This document shows positions 21,216 through 62,238 of a DNA stretch of 64,000 nt, in pieces. The stretch covers positions 372,001 through 436,000 of the forward strand of contig CALWKS010000001.1 in assembly GCA_944381325.1 (NCBI GenBank), given 5' to 3'. The first letter of the stretch is position 1. The number at the start of each line of letters is the position of its first letter. The position numbers were made by a program, and so were the translations under genes. The DNA comes from an uncultured Christensenellaceae bacterium. GTDB taxonomy: Bacteria > Bacillota > Clostridia > Christensenellales > UBA3700. Below the pieces are notes generated by a model. It worked only from the letters and a program-made list of their open reading frames with translations, ran no database searches and was not told the DNA's origin.

Positions 21216-22370
21216 TTAAATTTTCGGCGCGGCGTCTACTTCTCTGACCTCATACCTTACACCGAAATATTCAGCGATAATGCGGGCTATATTATAAAAT
21301 CCGCATAAAGTGCCGAGATTTTTCACTTCTTTGCCCTTCTGATAGATTATAAGAGGCACGTTTTCTCTTGAATGATCGGTCGAAGGCGTTGACGGGTCGC
21401 AACCGTGATCTGCCGTGATTATCAGCATATCGTCATTTGACAACTTTTTAGCGATATCGGGAATTATCTTGTCGAACGCATTCAGGCAATCTGCATATCC
21501 CTTCACGTCGTTTCTGTGCCCGTAAAGCATATCAAAATCGACGAAATTGGCAAAAACAAGACTGTCTTTATGCGGTATGAATTTTATAATCTGCTCCCCG
21601 ACCTCTTTGTTGCCGTGAGCGGAAAGCGCCTCGGTTACCCCGTAGCCGCAGAATATATCGTTTATTTTGCCGACAGATACGACGTCGATATCTTTTTCGG
21701 ATAGCGCGTTTAAAAGCGTTTTTGCGGGCGGATTCAGCGCGTAATCACGTCTGTCCGGCGTGCGGTAATAATTGCCGTCTTTATCTTTCGAAAACGGGCG
21801 GGCTATTATTCTGCCCACACTGTCTTTACCGCACATTATCTTTCTTGCCTTTTCACAACAATCGTAAAGCCGCGCAAGACCGAAAGTGTCAACGCTTGCC
21901 GCGATCTGAAGAACGCTGTCAGCCGACGTATATACTATGGGAAGCCCTGTTTTTTCGTGTTCTTCACCCAGCTCTTTTATTATCTCTGTACCGCTAGCCG
22001 CCTTATTGCCTAGTACGCCTGTTACACCCCATGCCTCGCACAACTTTTTAACAATATCGTCAGGGAAACCTTCTGGATATGTCGGATGAGGAGTTTTTAC
22101 GATAAGACCCGCGATCTCATAATGCCCAGTCGTCGTGTCTTTTCCTTCAGAGCGTTCTTCTATCCTGCCGTAACTTGCAAGCGGATGCTCTACGGGCTCA
22201 GCAAAGTCGAGTCCGTCTATATTGTCAAAACCGAGAGCGCGCAGATTGGGCGCATTGACAAAAGGATAAATAGCCTTATAAGTATTGCTCCCCTCGTCGC
22301 CGAAAGCCGCCGCGTCCTTCGCGCCGCCTATTCCGAGACTGTCAAGAACGATAAGATAACAAGTTTTCAT
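21216..22370 (-). CDS. deoB: phosphopentomutase
   Basis: Interconverts ribose (deoxyribose) 1- and 5-phosphates in nucleoside salvage. The 384-residue alkaline-phosphatase-superfamily protein has the N-terminal metal Asp in IVLDSLGIGGAKDA, the phosphorylated Thr region EGSNTYKAI, and C-terminal metal ligands in TADHGCDPSTPSTDHSRE. No SD exists before the ATG; instead a strong promoter sits with its -10 six bases upstream, so the mRNA is probably leaderless. Confidence 0.96.
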   Translation of the reverse strand: MKTCYLIVLDSLGIGGAKDAAAFGDEGSNTYKAIYPFVNAPNLRALGFDNIDGLDFAEPVEHPLASYGRIEERSEGKDTTTGHYEIAGLIVKTPHPTYPEGFPDDIVKKLCEAWGVTGVLGNKAASGTEIIKELGEEHEKTGLPIVYTSADSVLQIAASVDTFGLARLYDCCEKARKIMCGKDSVGRIIARPFSKDKDGNYYRTPDRRDYALNPPAKTLLNALSEKDIDVVSVGKINDIFCGYGVTEALSAHGNKEVGEQIIKFIPHKDSLVFANFVDFDMLYGHRNDVKGYADCLNAFDKIIPDIAKKLSNDDMLIITADHGCDPSTPSTDHSRENVPLIIYQKGKEVKNLGTLCGFYNIARIIAEYFGVRYEVREVDAAPKI

Positions 22371-57573: not shown

Positions 57574-60117
57574 TTATTTCGCTTCAAGCCAGTTGTCGCC
57601 GCTCCCGACGTCGGCAATAAGCGGCACGCTGAGAGAAGCGACGTTCTGCATGCAATTCTTAAGCAAGGTTTCAACCTTTTCTTTTTCTTCTCTAGGACAA
57701 TCGATGATAAGTTCGTCATGCACCTGCATTATAAGTTTTGCCTTAAATCCGCCCTTTTCAAGCTCTTTTTTCACCTCGATCATAGCGGCTTTTATTATAT
57801 CGCTTGCCGTGCCCTGCAAAGGCATATTCATTGCGACCCTTTCTCCGAACGCACGCGTCGCATATACAGACGCCTGAAGCTCGGGGATATATCTCTTTCT
57901 GCCGTAAAGCGTCTTTACGTATCCGTTTTCTTTCGCAAAAGCTACGCAGTCGTTCATAAACTGCTTTACTTTGGGATATGTCGCAAAATAATTCTGCATA
58001 TATACCCTTGCCTGAGGCACGCTTATACCGAGATCCTCACTCAGACCGAAATCGCTTATGCCGTATATAATGCCGAAGTTGACCGCCTTAGCGCTTCTTC
58101 TCATATCCTGAGTTACCTCGTCAAACGGCACGCCGAAAAGCTTAGCCGCGGTAGAACGGTGGAAGTCCTCTCCCTCGTTGAACGCACCGATCATCGTTTC
58201 GTCCCCGCTCATATGCGCCATTAAGCGCAGCTCTATCTGAGAATAGTCGCCGCACACAAGCACGTTGCCGTCTGCAGGCACGAACATCTTTCTTATGCGC
58301 TTGCCGCTCTCTTTGCGTATCGGGATATTCTGAAGATTGGGCTCGGTAGAAGAAAGTCTTCCTGTTGCAGTAACCGCCTGCTTGAATACGGTGTGTATCC
58401 TGCCGTTCGAGTCTATAAGCGGGATCATGCCGTCAAGATAGGTTGACTTGAGTTTAACAAGTTCTCTGTATTGAAGTATCGCGGGGATTATTGTATGCTC
58501 GTTTCTCAAAGCTTCAAGCACTTCGACGTTGGTCGAATAACCCGTCTTGGTCTTCTTGCCGTGCTTTAATCCCAGTTTCTCGAAAAGAATCTTGGCAAGC
58601 TGCTGAGTAGAATTTATATTGAACGGCTCTCCTGCCAGTTCTGTGATCTCAGCGGCAAGTTTTTCTGTTTCCGCAGTCAGTTCCCCGTTGAGTTCGTCAA
58701 GATATTTTCTGTCGACTCTGAAGCCCTCTCTTTCCATAGAATAAAGCACGTCCACAAGCGGAAGCTCGAGCTCTTTATAAAGCTTTCCCTGTTCTTTTTC
58801 TCTCATCTCTTCATCGAGAAGGTCGTCCAGTGCAAAAAGCGCCGCCGCTCCGTCGTCACCGTTTATCCCGTATGCGCTTGCAAGCGCGGAAAGCGACTTA
58901 TAGTTTCTGTTGCTGTCGCAAAGATAGGCTTTGAGCATAACGTCGTCGCTCACGCCTTTGAGCGTTATGCCGTACGGCTCTAGTAGATGCATATAAGTCT
59001 TTTTGTCAAAAAGGATCTTGCGCACGTCCTCGTCTTCGGCAAGCGGCTTGACAGCACGCAGAAATGCGTTGTAGTCGATGCCCTCTCCGAGCAAATTTTC
59101 AGATATGACAACTTCATAAGTTGAATCCGCGCCGCCTATGAATATGCGCTGAGACAAGTCGAGTGCGAATATGCCTGAATCCTTGATCTTTGACAGCGCT
59201 TTTGACAATGCTTCATCGTCTTCAAGCCTTTCAGCCTGTTTTATCTCTTTTATCTCTGCCTTTTTGCCGCCTGAAAAATTCAGTCTGTCCGCTATCTTGC
59301 CGAATTCGAATTCAAGCAGAATATCTTTAACGGAACTGTCGTACACCTGAGAAAAAGCCTGCTCTTCAGGCACGGTTTCTATTGGGCAGTCGCGGTCTAT
59401 GGTTGCAAGTTTATAAGAAAGGTATGCGCTTTCTTTGCCTTCAGTCAGCTTTCTGTTGAGCGCGCCTTTCGTCTCGTCAATATGAGCGTAAACTCCGTCC
59501 AGAGTGCCGTACTGAGCTAGTAGTTTCGTCGCCGTGCCCTCGCCTATACCTGCTACGCCGGGGATATTGTCTGAGCTGTCGCCCATAAGGGATTTAAGAT
59601 CTATTATCTGCGAAGGGGTGAAGCCGTCTTCTTTAAGACGCGCTTCGTCGTATTCGACTATTTCCGATATGCCCTTTTTCGTCATCAGGACGGTCGTTTT
59701 TTCTCCGACCAGCTGAAGGCTGTCGCGGTCTCCCGTAACAATATATGTCTTGCAGGAAGTGCGCTTTGAAAGCGTGCCGAGAATGTCGTCCGCTTCGTAT
59801 CCGTCAAGCTCCGCTATCTGCACTTTCATAGCGCGAAGAAGCCTTTTCAGCGGCTCGAGCTGAGAAGCGAGTTCTTCAGGCATAGGCTTTCTTGTCGCCT
59901 TGTAACCCTCGTACATTTTTTTGCGGAAAGTAGGAGCTTTGCGGTCAAAAGCCGCCACGACGTAATCGGGCTTATACTTATCCACCAGCTTTAAAAACAT
60001 ATTGACAAAGCCGAAGATCGCGCCGGTCTGCTGCCCCTGTCTGTTGGTCAGCGGAGGAAGCGCGTAAAAAGCTCTGTTGATAAGCGAATTTGAATCGAGT
60101 AATACGAGAGTCTGCAT
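57574..60117 (-). CDS. polA: DNA polymerase I
   Basis: 847 residues from MQTLVLLDSN. N-terminal 5'-3' exonuclease (DGYEADDILG; GDSSDNIPGV), a middle domain where the usual DTET exonuclease motif is absent, reading LDLSQ, and a polymerase domain with DYSQIELRLMAHMSGDE, RRSAKAVNFGIIYG and VHDELI. It therefore lacks proofreading, as in many Firmicutes. AAGGAT lies before the ATG. Confidence 0.96.
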   Translation of the reverse strand: MQTLVLLDSNSLINRAFYALPPLTNRQGQQTGAIFGFVNMFLKLVDKYKPDYVVAAFDRKAPTFRKKMYEGYKATRKPMPEELASQLEPLKRLLRAMKVQIAELDGYEADDILGTLSKRTSCKTYIVTGDRDSLQLVGEKTTVLMTKKGISEIVEYDEARLKEDGFTPSQIIDLKSLMGDSSDNIPGVAGIGEGTATKLLAQYGTLDGVYAHIDETKGALNRKLTEGKESAYLSYKLATIDRDCPIETVPEEQAFSQVYDSSVKDILLEFEFGKIADRLNFSGGKKAEIKEIKQAERLEDDEALSKALSKIKDSGIFALDLSQRIFIGGADSTYEVVISENLLGEGIDYNAFLRAVKPLAEDEDVRKILFDKKTYMHLLEPYGITLKGVSDDVMLKAYLCDSNRNYKSLSALASAYGINGDDGAAALFALDDLLDEEMREKEQGKLYKELELPLVDVLYSMEREGFRVDRKYLDELNGELTAETEKLAAEITELAGEPFNINSTQQLAKILFEKLGLKHGKKTKTGYSTNVEVLEALRNEHTIIPAILQYRELVKLKSTYLDGMIPLIDSNGRIHTVFKQAVTATGRLSSTEPNLQNIPIRKESGKRIRKMFVPADGNVLVCGDYSQIELRLMAHMSGDETMIGAFNEGEDFHRSTAAKLFGVPFDEVTQDMRRSAKAVNFGIIYGISDFGLSEDLGISVPQARVYMQNYFATYPKVKQFMNDCVAFAKENGYVKTLYGRKRYIPELQASVYATRAFGERVAMNMPLQGTASDIIKAAMIEVKKELEKGGFKAKLIMQVHDELIIDCPREEKEKVETLLKNCMQNVASLSVPLIADVGSGDNWLEAK

Positions 60118-60205: not shown

Positions 60206-60437
60206 TAACCGACCGCAAAAATATACGGGATTTTTACAAACGGTTTACCTTGAATACAACTGAAAAACCTGATCTGAAACGCGGAATTTCAATGAATAAA
60301 CGGTGATTATATATTTTCTATTGACAATCCGCGCGTAATTATTCTCTCGATGTATAAACGCGTAAGACAATTAAAAAATATTATTTGCCGCATATCGGTA
60401 TTATACAATAAAAATGCTTTTTTGTCTATATTTTTGT

Positions 60438-60466
60438 TTGACTTTAACTGCGTATTTTGTTATATA
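60438..60466 (+). promoter_or_regulatory. promoter of the Na/Pi cotransporter
   Basis: TTGACT (60438-60443), 17-base spacer, TATATA (60461-60466). An in-frame ATG lies 5 bases further, and a structured 87-base stretch follows. Confidence 0.7.
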
Positions 60467-60483
60467 TGGTAATGGTAACAAGA

Positions 60484-60550
60484 GCGGAAAACCTCTTTCC
60501 GCACCTCCGCCGAACGGCGGCTCATAACAAGCGTACGGGCTTATCCGTAC
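60484..60550 (+). promoter_or_regulatory. structured leader with three perfect hairpins
   Basis: Three consecutive stems: GCGGAAA / TTTCCGC (60484-60502, loop ACCTC), CCGCC / GGCGG (60507-60520, loop GAAC) and GTACGG / CCGTAC (60533-60550, loop GCTTAT). They lie between the promoter and the conserved start of the transporter. I do not recognise it as a known riboswitch class. It could instead encode a 29-residue N-terminal extension. Confidence 0.6.
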
Positions 60551-60558
60551 ACGGGTAT

Positions 60559-62238
60559 ATGGAAGTTTTAAAAACAATTTTGACACTTTTTGGCGGACTG
60601 GGCGTATTCCTCATCGCACTCAAGATAATGAGCGAAAACCTCGAGTCCGTGGCAGGCAACCGATTAAGGTCGGTTTTCAACCGTATCAGCAGCAACAGAT
60701 TTGCAGGTATCGCGGTAGGTACAGGCGTAACGATGGTCATTCAGAGTTCGTCGGCAACCACAGTCATGGTCGTAGGTTTCGTAAACGCAGGCGTCATGAC
60801 TCTCTCTCAGGCGACTTCGATCATCATGGGTGCCAACATCGGTACGACAATTACGGCGCAGATAGGCGCGCTTCAGTCTCTGCCTATCACGGCTTTCTTC
60901 GCCGCTCTCGCCTGCGTCGGCGCGTTTATGCAGATGTCCAAGCACGACAAAGTCAACCTCTGGGGCTGCATAATCGGAAGCATAGGCATGATTTTCGTAG
61001 GACTTCAGGTAATGAGTTCTGCAATGAAGACATTCAGCAATTCTCCCGTCATCGAAGATGTAATGACCTCGATAAGCAATCCCGTATTGCTTCTTCTGAT
61101 AGGTCTTACGATAACCGCGATTGTTCAGAGTTCTTCAGCTACCACGATCATTCTTATAACAATGGCGGGCGCAAACCTGATGACGCTTGAAAACGCGATT
61201 TTCATCACTCTCGGTATCAATATCGGTACTTGCGTAACCGCAATGTTCGCGTCAATAGGCGCAACCCCCAACGGCAAACGCGCTTCTTTCATTCACCTGA
61301 CTTTCAACTGCATAGGCTCAGTGATTTTCTTCATATTGGCGCTTGTCCTGCCTATAGACAAATGGCTGCAGGCGGCTTTCCCTGAAATAGAAACGCAGAT
61401 CGCTATGTTCCATACAATATTCAACGTTACGACCACGATACTGCTCGTGCCGTTCATCAAACAGCTCACTCAGCTCGCCTGTCTCGTCATCAGAGATAAG
61501 AAACCCGCTCCCAACGAAGACGGTTTCGTAGAAGAAAAATTCCAGTACGTCGACGAACGACTGCTCGCTACCCCGACCATCGCGCTCGCTCAGGTACGCA
61601 AAGAGATCCTTCTTATGGCAAGCATAGCAAAGAAGAACTTCGATACATCGGTATACGCGATAACGATCGGCTCGCTTGCTAAACAGCCCAAATTCGAAGC
61701 GCGCGAAAAACATCTGAACTTCCTCAACAAAGAGCTGACAAACTATCTGGTAAAGGTTTCTTCAGCGCCTATTTCCAAGCAGACAGAGCGCGAACTCAGC
61801 TCTTACTACCACGTAATATCAGACCTTGAACGCGTAGGCGACTATTCTGAAAATATTATGGAATACACCGAAAAGCTGGTAAAGAACAACGTCTCTTTCT
61901 CAGAAGCGGCAAAAGGCGAACTGGCAGAGATGAAAAGCGCGATCGACAAACTTTACGACGTCGTCATGACGGGCTATATCAATAAGGATATTTCTCAGAA
62001 AGACGAAATGGAACAGCTTGAAGAAAGCGTCGACGAATACAAAGTCGCACTGGACCGCGCGCATATCGCAAGACTGAGCGAAAACCTCTGCTCTCCCGAC
62101 GCAGGTGCCGTATGGCTCAACCTGATAAACGATATGGAGAGAATAGGCGACCACTTCCGCAACGTCTACACGAGCATGGATTATTACGTAGAGCCCCCCA
62201 CAAAGGTAAAGGCAACCGTAAACGCAAAAGCGCAGTAA
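60559..62238 (+). CDS. Na/Pi-cotransporter with PhoU-like domain
   Basis: 559 residues from MEVLKTIL. Two Na_Pi_cotrans repeats carry the paired motif QSSSATTVMVVG and QSSSATTIILIT; 8-9 membrane helices occupy the first 310 residues. A PhoU-like helical domain (about 340-550) follows. Imports phosphate with Na+. No SD precedes this ATG; an in-frame ATG at 60472, next to the -10, would add 29 residues (MVTRAENLFPHLRRT...) through the hairpin region. The conserved family start favours 60559, although translation from 60472 on a leaderless mRNA is a real alternative. Confidence 0.85.
   Translation: MEVLKTILTLFGGLGVFLIALKIMSENLESVAGNRLRSVFNRISSNRFAGIAVGTGVTMVIQSSSATTVMVVGFVNAGVMTLSQATSIIMGANIGTTITAQIGALQSLPITAFFAALACVGAFMQMSKHDKVNLWGCIIGSIGMIFVGLQVMSSAMKTFSNSPVIEDVMTSISNPVLLLLIGLTITAIVQSSSATTIILITMAGANLMTLENAIFITLGINIGTCVTAMFASIGATPNGKRASFIHLTFNCIGSVIFFILALVLPIDKWLQAAFPEIETQIAMFHTIFNVTTTILLVPFIKQLTQLACLVIRDKKPAPNEDGFVEEKFQYVDERLLATPTIALAQVRKEILLMASIAKKNFDTSVYAITIGSLAKQPKFEAREKHLNFLNKELTNYLVKVSSAPISKQTERELSSYYHVISDLERVGDYSENIMEYTEKLVKNNVSFSEAAKGELAEMKSAIDKLYDVVMTGYINKDISQKDEMEQLEESVDEYKVALDRAHIARLSENLCSPDAGAVWLNLINDMERIGDHFRNVYTSMDYYVEPPTKVKATVNAKAQ

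Follow-up and report, generated by a model that had tools for sequence, protein, structure and literature searches.

The window analysed here, a stretch of 64,000 nucleotides from an uncultured Christensenellaceae bacterium, contains two divergently oriented genes whose promoters lie side by side. On the plus strand, positions 60559-62238 encode a Na/Pi cotransporter of 559 amino acids with a C-terminal PhoU-like domain, beginning at ATG 60559-60561. The protein scores 191 bits against profile NF037997 (cut-off 50) and 197.7 against TIGR00704, the latter below the cut-off of 210; the PhoU model covers residues 343-545, likewise with a score below its cut-off. The minus-strand neighbour (57574-60117) is a gene that, judging from its sequence, we take to be polA. 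The genome groups with Candidatus Ornithoclostridium and uncultured Christensenellaceae genomes, in a genus within the Christensenellales.

Upstream of the transporter a plus-strand promoter can be read from the sequence at 60438-60466, with a -35 element TTGACT (60438-60443), a 17-nt spacer and a -10 element TATATA (60461-60466). It is not listed under a stricter promoter consensus scan; what supports it is its conservation throughout the 13 species of the genus and in both species of genus g3. The promoter is kept in the nine species that share the hairpins described below, and is recognisable as TTTGACTT...TTGTTATAAA or a similar sequence in four sister species and in genus g3. Transcription from it would be expected to start at about 60472. 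The divergent promoter towards the presumed polA (60400-60428, minus strand, TAGACA-17-TATAAT) has 11 of 12 consensus matches, and both of its hexamers are invariant across the nine species.

Between the transporter promoter and the ATG, three hairpins with perfect stems follow one another on the plus strand within 67 bases. H1 (60484-60502, GCGGAAA-ACCTC-TTTCCGC) has 7 bp and the loop ACCTC, H2 (60507-60520, CCGCC-GAAC-GGCGG) has 5 bp and the loop GAAC, and H3 (60533-60550, GTACGG-GCTTAT-CCGTAC) has 6 bp and is separated from the ATG by 8 nt. The 5' segment GGTAATGGTAACAAGA (60468-60483, plus strand), which lies where transcription is expected to begin or immediately past that point, is predicted to be single-stranded, so that about 12-16 unpaired nucleotides would precede H1; its length is 16 nt in all nine species and its mean difference between them is 21%. 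The ATG itself is predicted to be paired in this species, in a helix that its surroundings would form with the linker between H2 and H3.

An initial annotation of this DNA had placed the promoter and the three perfect hairpins at the same positions and had noted the lack of a Shine-Dalgarno (SD) sequence before the transporter ATG. Our analysis agrees on each point: the promoter is conserved across the genus, and the duplex energy with the anti-SD is only -2.2 kcal/mol, whereas the median over the 696 genes called in this genome is -7.8. The anti-SD-like CACCTCC to which the annotation also drew attention is present here but is not conserved among species. As a separate observation, the interval from the -10 box to H1 (window 60467-60483, TGGTAATGGTAACAAGA) is better conserved than the linkers, and in this species it contains a direct repeat of TGGTAA, a possible operator.

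Comparison with the genome background

Genome statistics were drawn from 846 kb of the same genome and from the 696 genes of our own gene call. An SD-like duplex of -4.5 kcal/mol or better precedes 83% of these genes, a percentage to be taken as approximate since both gene caller and SD score were home-made. Free upstream DNA is available for 53 SD-less genes, and in about 30 of them a simple pattern finds a -10-like box only a few bases ahead of the start codon, which gives them a leaderless appearance. With so many of the other SD-less genes apparently lacking a leader, an SD-less start behind a long structured leader would be exceptional in this genome. The apparently leaderless class, about 30 genes in contig C1 and part of contig C2 of G000, combines a TATAAT-like -10 element about 6 nt before the start with the absence of an SD; window position 22370, at the minus-strand gene 21216-22370, provides an example. 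The 16S 3' end was sought in the assembly with up to 3 mismatches and no match was found, for which the search pattern or the assembly may be at fault.

Groups of three perfect hairpins within 72 bases gave 127 overlapping hits in the 846 kb, whatever their context, and are thus not rare in raw sequence, but only eight of the 327 genes with free upstream DNA have three such hairpins in their last 85 bases. Ranked by total stem length, the transporter leader comes first among these eight; ranked by folding energy, it comes fourth. Its folding energy is mildly unusual (z -2.1 to -2.4), and over the nine species the mean z is -1.4 (-0.8 to -2.2 per species, two hand-aligned rows being one loop base short); raw folding energy was thus discarded as a weak proof of structure. 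The decisive evidence that the hairpins are real is their conservation in nine species.

Conservation and covariation of the hairpins

The transporter gene is present in 13 genomes of the genus, this one included. All three hairpins occur in nine of the 13 species, whose transporters are 88-100% identical to this one and which are set apart from the other four in the gene tree. Between species the stems differ by a mean of 14%, the loops by 57%, the linkers by 48% and fourfold synonymous sites by 52%, the last figure indicating that unconstrained sequence is well diverged. Taken singly, the loops differ by 68% (H1), 69% (H2) and 32% (H3), and the linkers by 43-58%.

H3 is paired in all nine species, with a stem difference of 6-8% and five of its six pairs invariant. 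The sixth, pair 3, is G-C, A-U (in two species) or G-U; the two-sided changes, in G000 and G008, lie on separate branches of the gene tree, and the G-U intermediate in G009 points to pairing in RNA rather than to a DNA palindrome. In H1, 96.8% of cells are paired and compensatory changes are found at pairs 4 and 5, which with pair 3 of H3 makes two-sided changes at three of the 18 pairs. H2 had to be aligned by hand because the automatic alignments put some rows out of register (with 77.8% of cells paired); in the hand alignment a CCGC/GCGG core is present in nine of nine species, and the next pair is C-G, U-G or U-A, or an outer U-A or G-C pair is added. Overall, 92.6% of cells are paired, compared with at most 63.1% when the partners are slid, and the covariation score was reached by 19 of 500 shuffles of the nine sequences. 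On this alignment we consider the covariation at the leader stems to be real but modest. An SD is absent from all nine hairpin species (duplex energy +1.9 to -2.6). The comparison gives good support to the view that this region is a conserved RNA leader, a 5' UTR in which selection acts on the stems.

Nature of the leader

Loop and linker lengths vary between species, so that H3 falls in different frames. Five species have a stop in the transporter frame 10-15 codons upstream; in these the sole start is the ATG by H3, G010 having in addition an ATG two codons earlier. A leader frame that is not conserved, together with in-frame stops in five species, argues for a 5' UTR RNA and against the structured N-terminal coding extension that the initial annotation had held out as an alternative, and we have abandoned the latter.

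A search against Rfam 15 returned nothing in the window at gathering scores and only chance-level matches at E up to 10; the annotation, too, had recognised no matching riboswitch class. Under strict filters, a covariance model of the leader found one strong site per genome, always before this gene, in nine of 46 family genomes; three further genomes gave weak matches (E 0.02-0.05). A weak match in another genus (L042) was read as a likely intergenic terminator hairpin. Within its own genome the model found nothing else convincing, and a search of the 846 kb for near copies of a whole hairpin was negative, which speaks against a repeat element.

The annotation had further proposed a regulatory RNA for phosphate or sodium. 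Its RNA component is borne out by stems kept in nine species and by the compensatory changes that a comparison upstream of homologues brought to light; the sensing component is not, as there is no conserved unpaired core, no Rfam match and no occurrence before other genes. A literature search for Pi cotransporters with riboswitches in Clostridia was without result. Two other arrangements were considered. The start-masking helix predicted here for the H2-H3 linker was rejected as a conserved feature, as each species' own pairs were no better than swapped ones (nine species, p 0.83). A split SD brought close by H3 was rejected because SD-like bases before H3 were not seen by eye in any species.

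Start signals in related species and genera

In the four sister species the same promoter is followed by an SD (-8.3 to -12.6). The leader of G001 (Candidatus Ornithoclostridium excrementipullorum; L027 3900-4003) consists of four other GC-rich hairpins and then an SD, so hairpins and SD are not mutually exclusive; in G004, G006 and G007 a single hairpin accompanies the SD. In genus g3, G020 (L057) has an unrelated sequence with perfect hairpins of 7, 5 and 5 bp and a 3-bp one before an SD-less ATG, and G019 has two hairpins and a weak SD. Taken together, genera g1 and g3 show hairpin leaders turning up repeatedly before this gene while their sequence changes fast. In genus g5 (L046-L049, L051, L053, L055, L056, L058-L062) a TATAAT-like box lies a few bases before the transporter ATG, and the Na/Pi gene there appears to be leaderless, so that one and the same gene would be started in different ways from genus to genus. 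Mostly SD-like bases were seen by eye in genera g2, g4 and g6. The three-hairpin leader is restricted, as far as we have searched, to one clade.

Interpretation

The promoter sequence, the hairpins, the selection on their stems, the missing SD and the position of the start codon are all seen in the data; where transcription starts, how the leader acts on translation or stability and whether it is regulated at all we infer. The explanation that we prefer, giving it as much credence as doubt, is a clade-specific structured leader that would set SD-less translation, and possibly stability, through structure alone. The transporter mRNA would carry a 5' UTR of about 87-91 nt, with a short unpaired 5' end and three independent hairpins, the last of which would be 7-8 nt away from an SD-less ATG. 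The hairpins would act by structure alone and not through a ligand pocket, most likely setting the access of the 30S subunit to the start codon: they would keep the leader compact and leave the 5' segment and the ATG region as the only open landing places, in a standby-like manner. A further effect may be protection of the 5' end against nucleases. That selection holds the stems while most loops and linkers are free to change agrees with a role of structure itself and argues against a ligand pocket, and we favour a standby-like function because the SD is absent clade-wide, the best-conserved stem stands beside the ATG and the conserved 5' segment is unpaired. The pairing predicted for the ATG in this species would hinder a simple landing model. 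An S1-domain protein is found in an 801-codon frame of the genome, at a score below the family cut-off, and its presence would allow S1-assisted initiation.

A stronger version, which we put forward tentatively and think doubtful, is that the string of hairpins replaced the SD in this clade and guides the ribosome to the SD-less ATG, in a genome that otherwise uses SD or leaderless starts; H3 lies about where the SD helix would sit. If this were true, orthologues of the same gene would use three start modes, namely a hairpin leader, an SD and a leaderless start. It is an open question how bacterial ribosomes locate start codons that lack an SD, and one orthologous gene with a recognisably conserved promoter, preceded by an SD, by SD-less hairpins or apparently by no leader, offers a natural series for reporters.

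The main rival to the standby-like reading holds that the hairpins are chiefly a 5' stabiliser against 5'-end-dependent decay and that the missing SD is tolerated and unrelated. Structure without conserved loops is what such a role would leave behind, and the sister species with other hairpins and an SD suggest that having hairpins outweighs their sequence. For stabilisation, however, a single hairpin right at the 5' end is required, whereas here about 12-16 nt are predicted to be single-stranded ahead of H1 and the best-conserved stem, H3, is the one farthest from the 5' end and next to the ATG. We judge this explanation unlikely.

Also unlikely, in our view, is a regulator that senses a ligand or protein, be it a phosphate or Na+ riboswitch or the target of an RNA-binding protein, and so controls the transporter. 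The position before a single transport gene speaks for it, as do stems conserved beyond what pairing needs (five of six H3 pairs invariant); the H3 loop (32%) and 5' segment (21%) are partly conserved as well, and a specific binding partner may for this reason be involved. The wider evidence runs the other way, with loops and linkers free to vary, the Rfam search empty, no terminator-like site on the coding strand and a start-masking helix that is not maintained across species (permutation p 0.83). In the known Na+ riboswitch, moreover, nucleotides at the base of P1 and in the loop of P2 are conserved (PMC9337991). Here no loop or junction that is conserved looks like a pocket for a ligand, which makes a riboswitch for a metabolite or ion unlikely.

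Leaderless genes are common in this genome, and a small ORF or N-terminal extension starting without a leader at ATG 60472, where transcription probably begins, could be translated through the hairpins and coupled to the transporter ATG. This frame is open across the leader in eight of the nine species; in G009 and G010 its end falls on the transporter ATG, and in G000 it is joined to the gene in frame. It is interrupted in G003, which has ATA and an early stop, and begins with TTG in G005; the frame of H3 differs by species and the frame end is not conserved relative to the gene, all of which makes this reading very improbable. Least tenable are palindromes that act in the DNA, as operators or as a mobile palindromic repeat, or antisense terminators placed between the two divergently oriented genes. 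Perfect palindromes do adjoin divergent promoters, and two weak terminator-like sites lie on the minus strand. Against this, each of the three stems has a G-U pair in at least one species, the element is single-copy in each genome with no near copy of a whole hairpin in 846 kb, and the minus-strand tail bases are not conserved.

Comparison with known systems

The structured leader that we favour is unlisted in Rfam; as a structured 5' UTR it would belong to a general kind already known, in a setting made unusual by the lack of an SD. Its closest parallels are the standby 5' UTRs, in which structured sites alter initiation rates over 100-fold (PMC3936740) and of which tisB requires both a single-stranded region and 5' structure (PMC7708055). 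These share with our leader a 5' segment that is single-stranded, here by prediction, and stable structure before the start; they act through structure rather than a metabolite, as our leader would. In the present case structure upstream of the start is conserved in nine species, and its transcription is deduced from the promoter. Unlike the synthetic standby series, which has an SD downstream (PMC3936740), our leader has none, and where tisB relies on a pseudoknot together with a ribosome-binding site that is masked (PMC7708055), the hairpins here are simple.

The Na+ riboswitch of the DUF1646 motif is likewise a 5' leader RNA before cation-linked transport genes, but it has conserved unpaired nucleotides proposed as the aptamer (PMC9337991), which the present leader, with no Rfam match, does not. 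The SD-less mRNAs of Bacteroidetes resemble the transporter mRNA in being leadered and devoid of an SD, with the start set by context and structure (PMC6847099). The absence of the SD is the rule in that phylum, whereas here it is an exception among mostly SD-preceded genes and, in a further departure from the Bacteroidetes mRNAs, is accompanied by a strong hairpin that ends 8 nt before the ATG.
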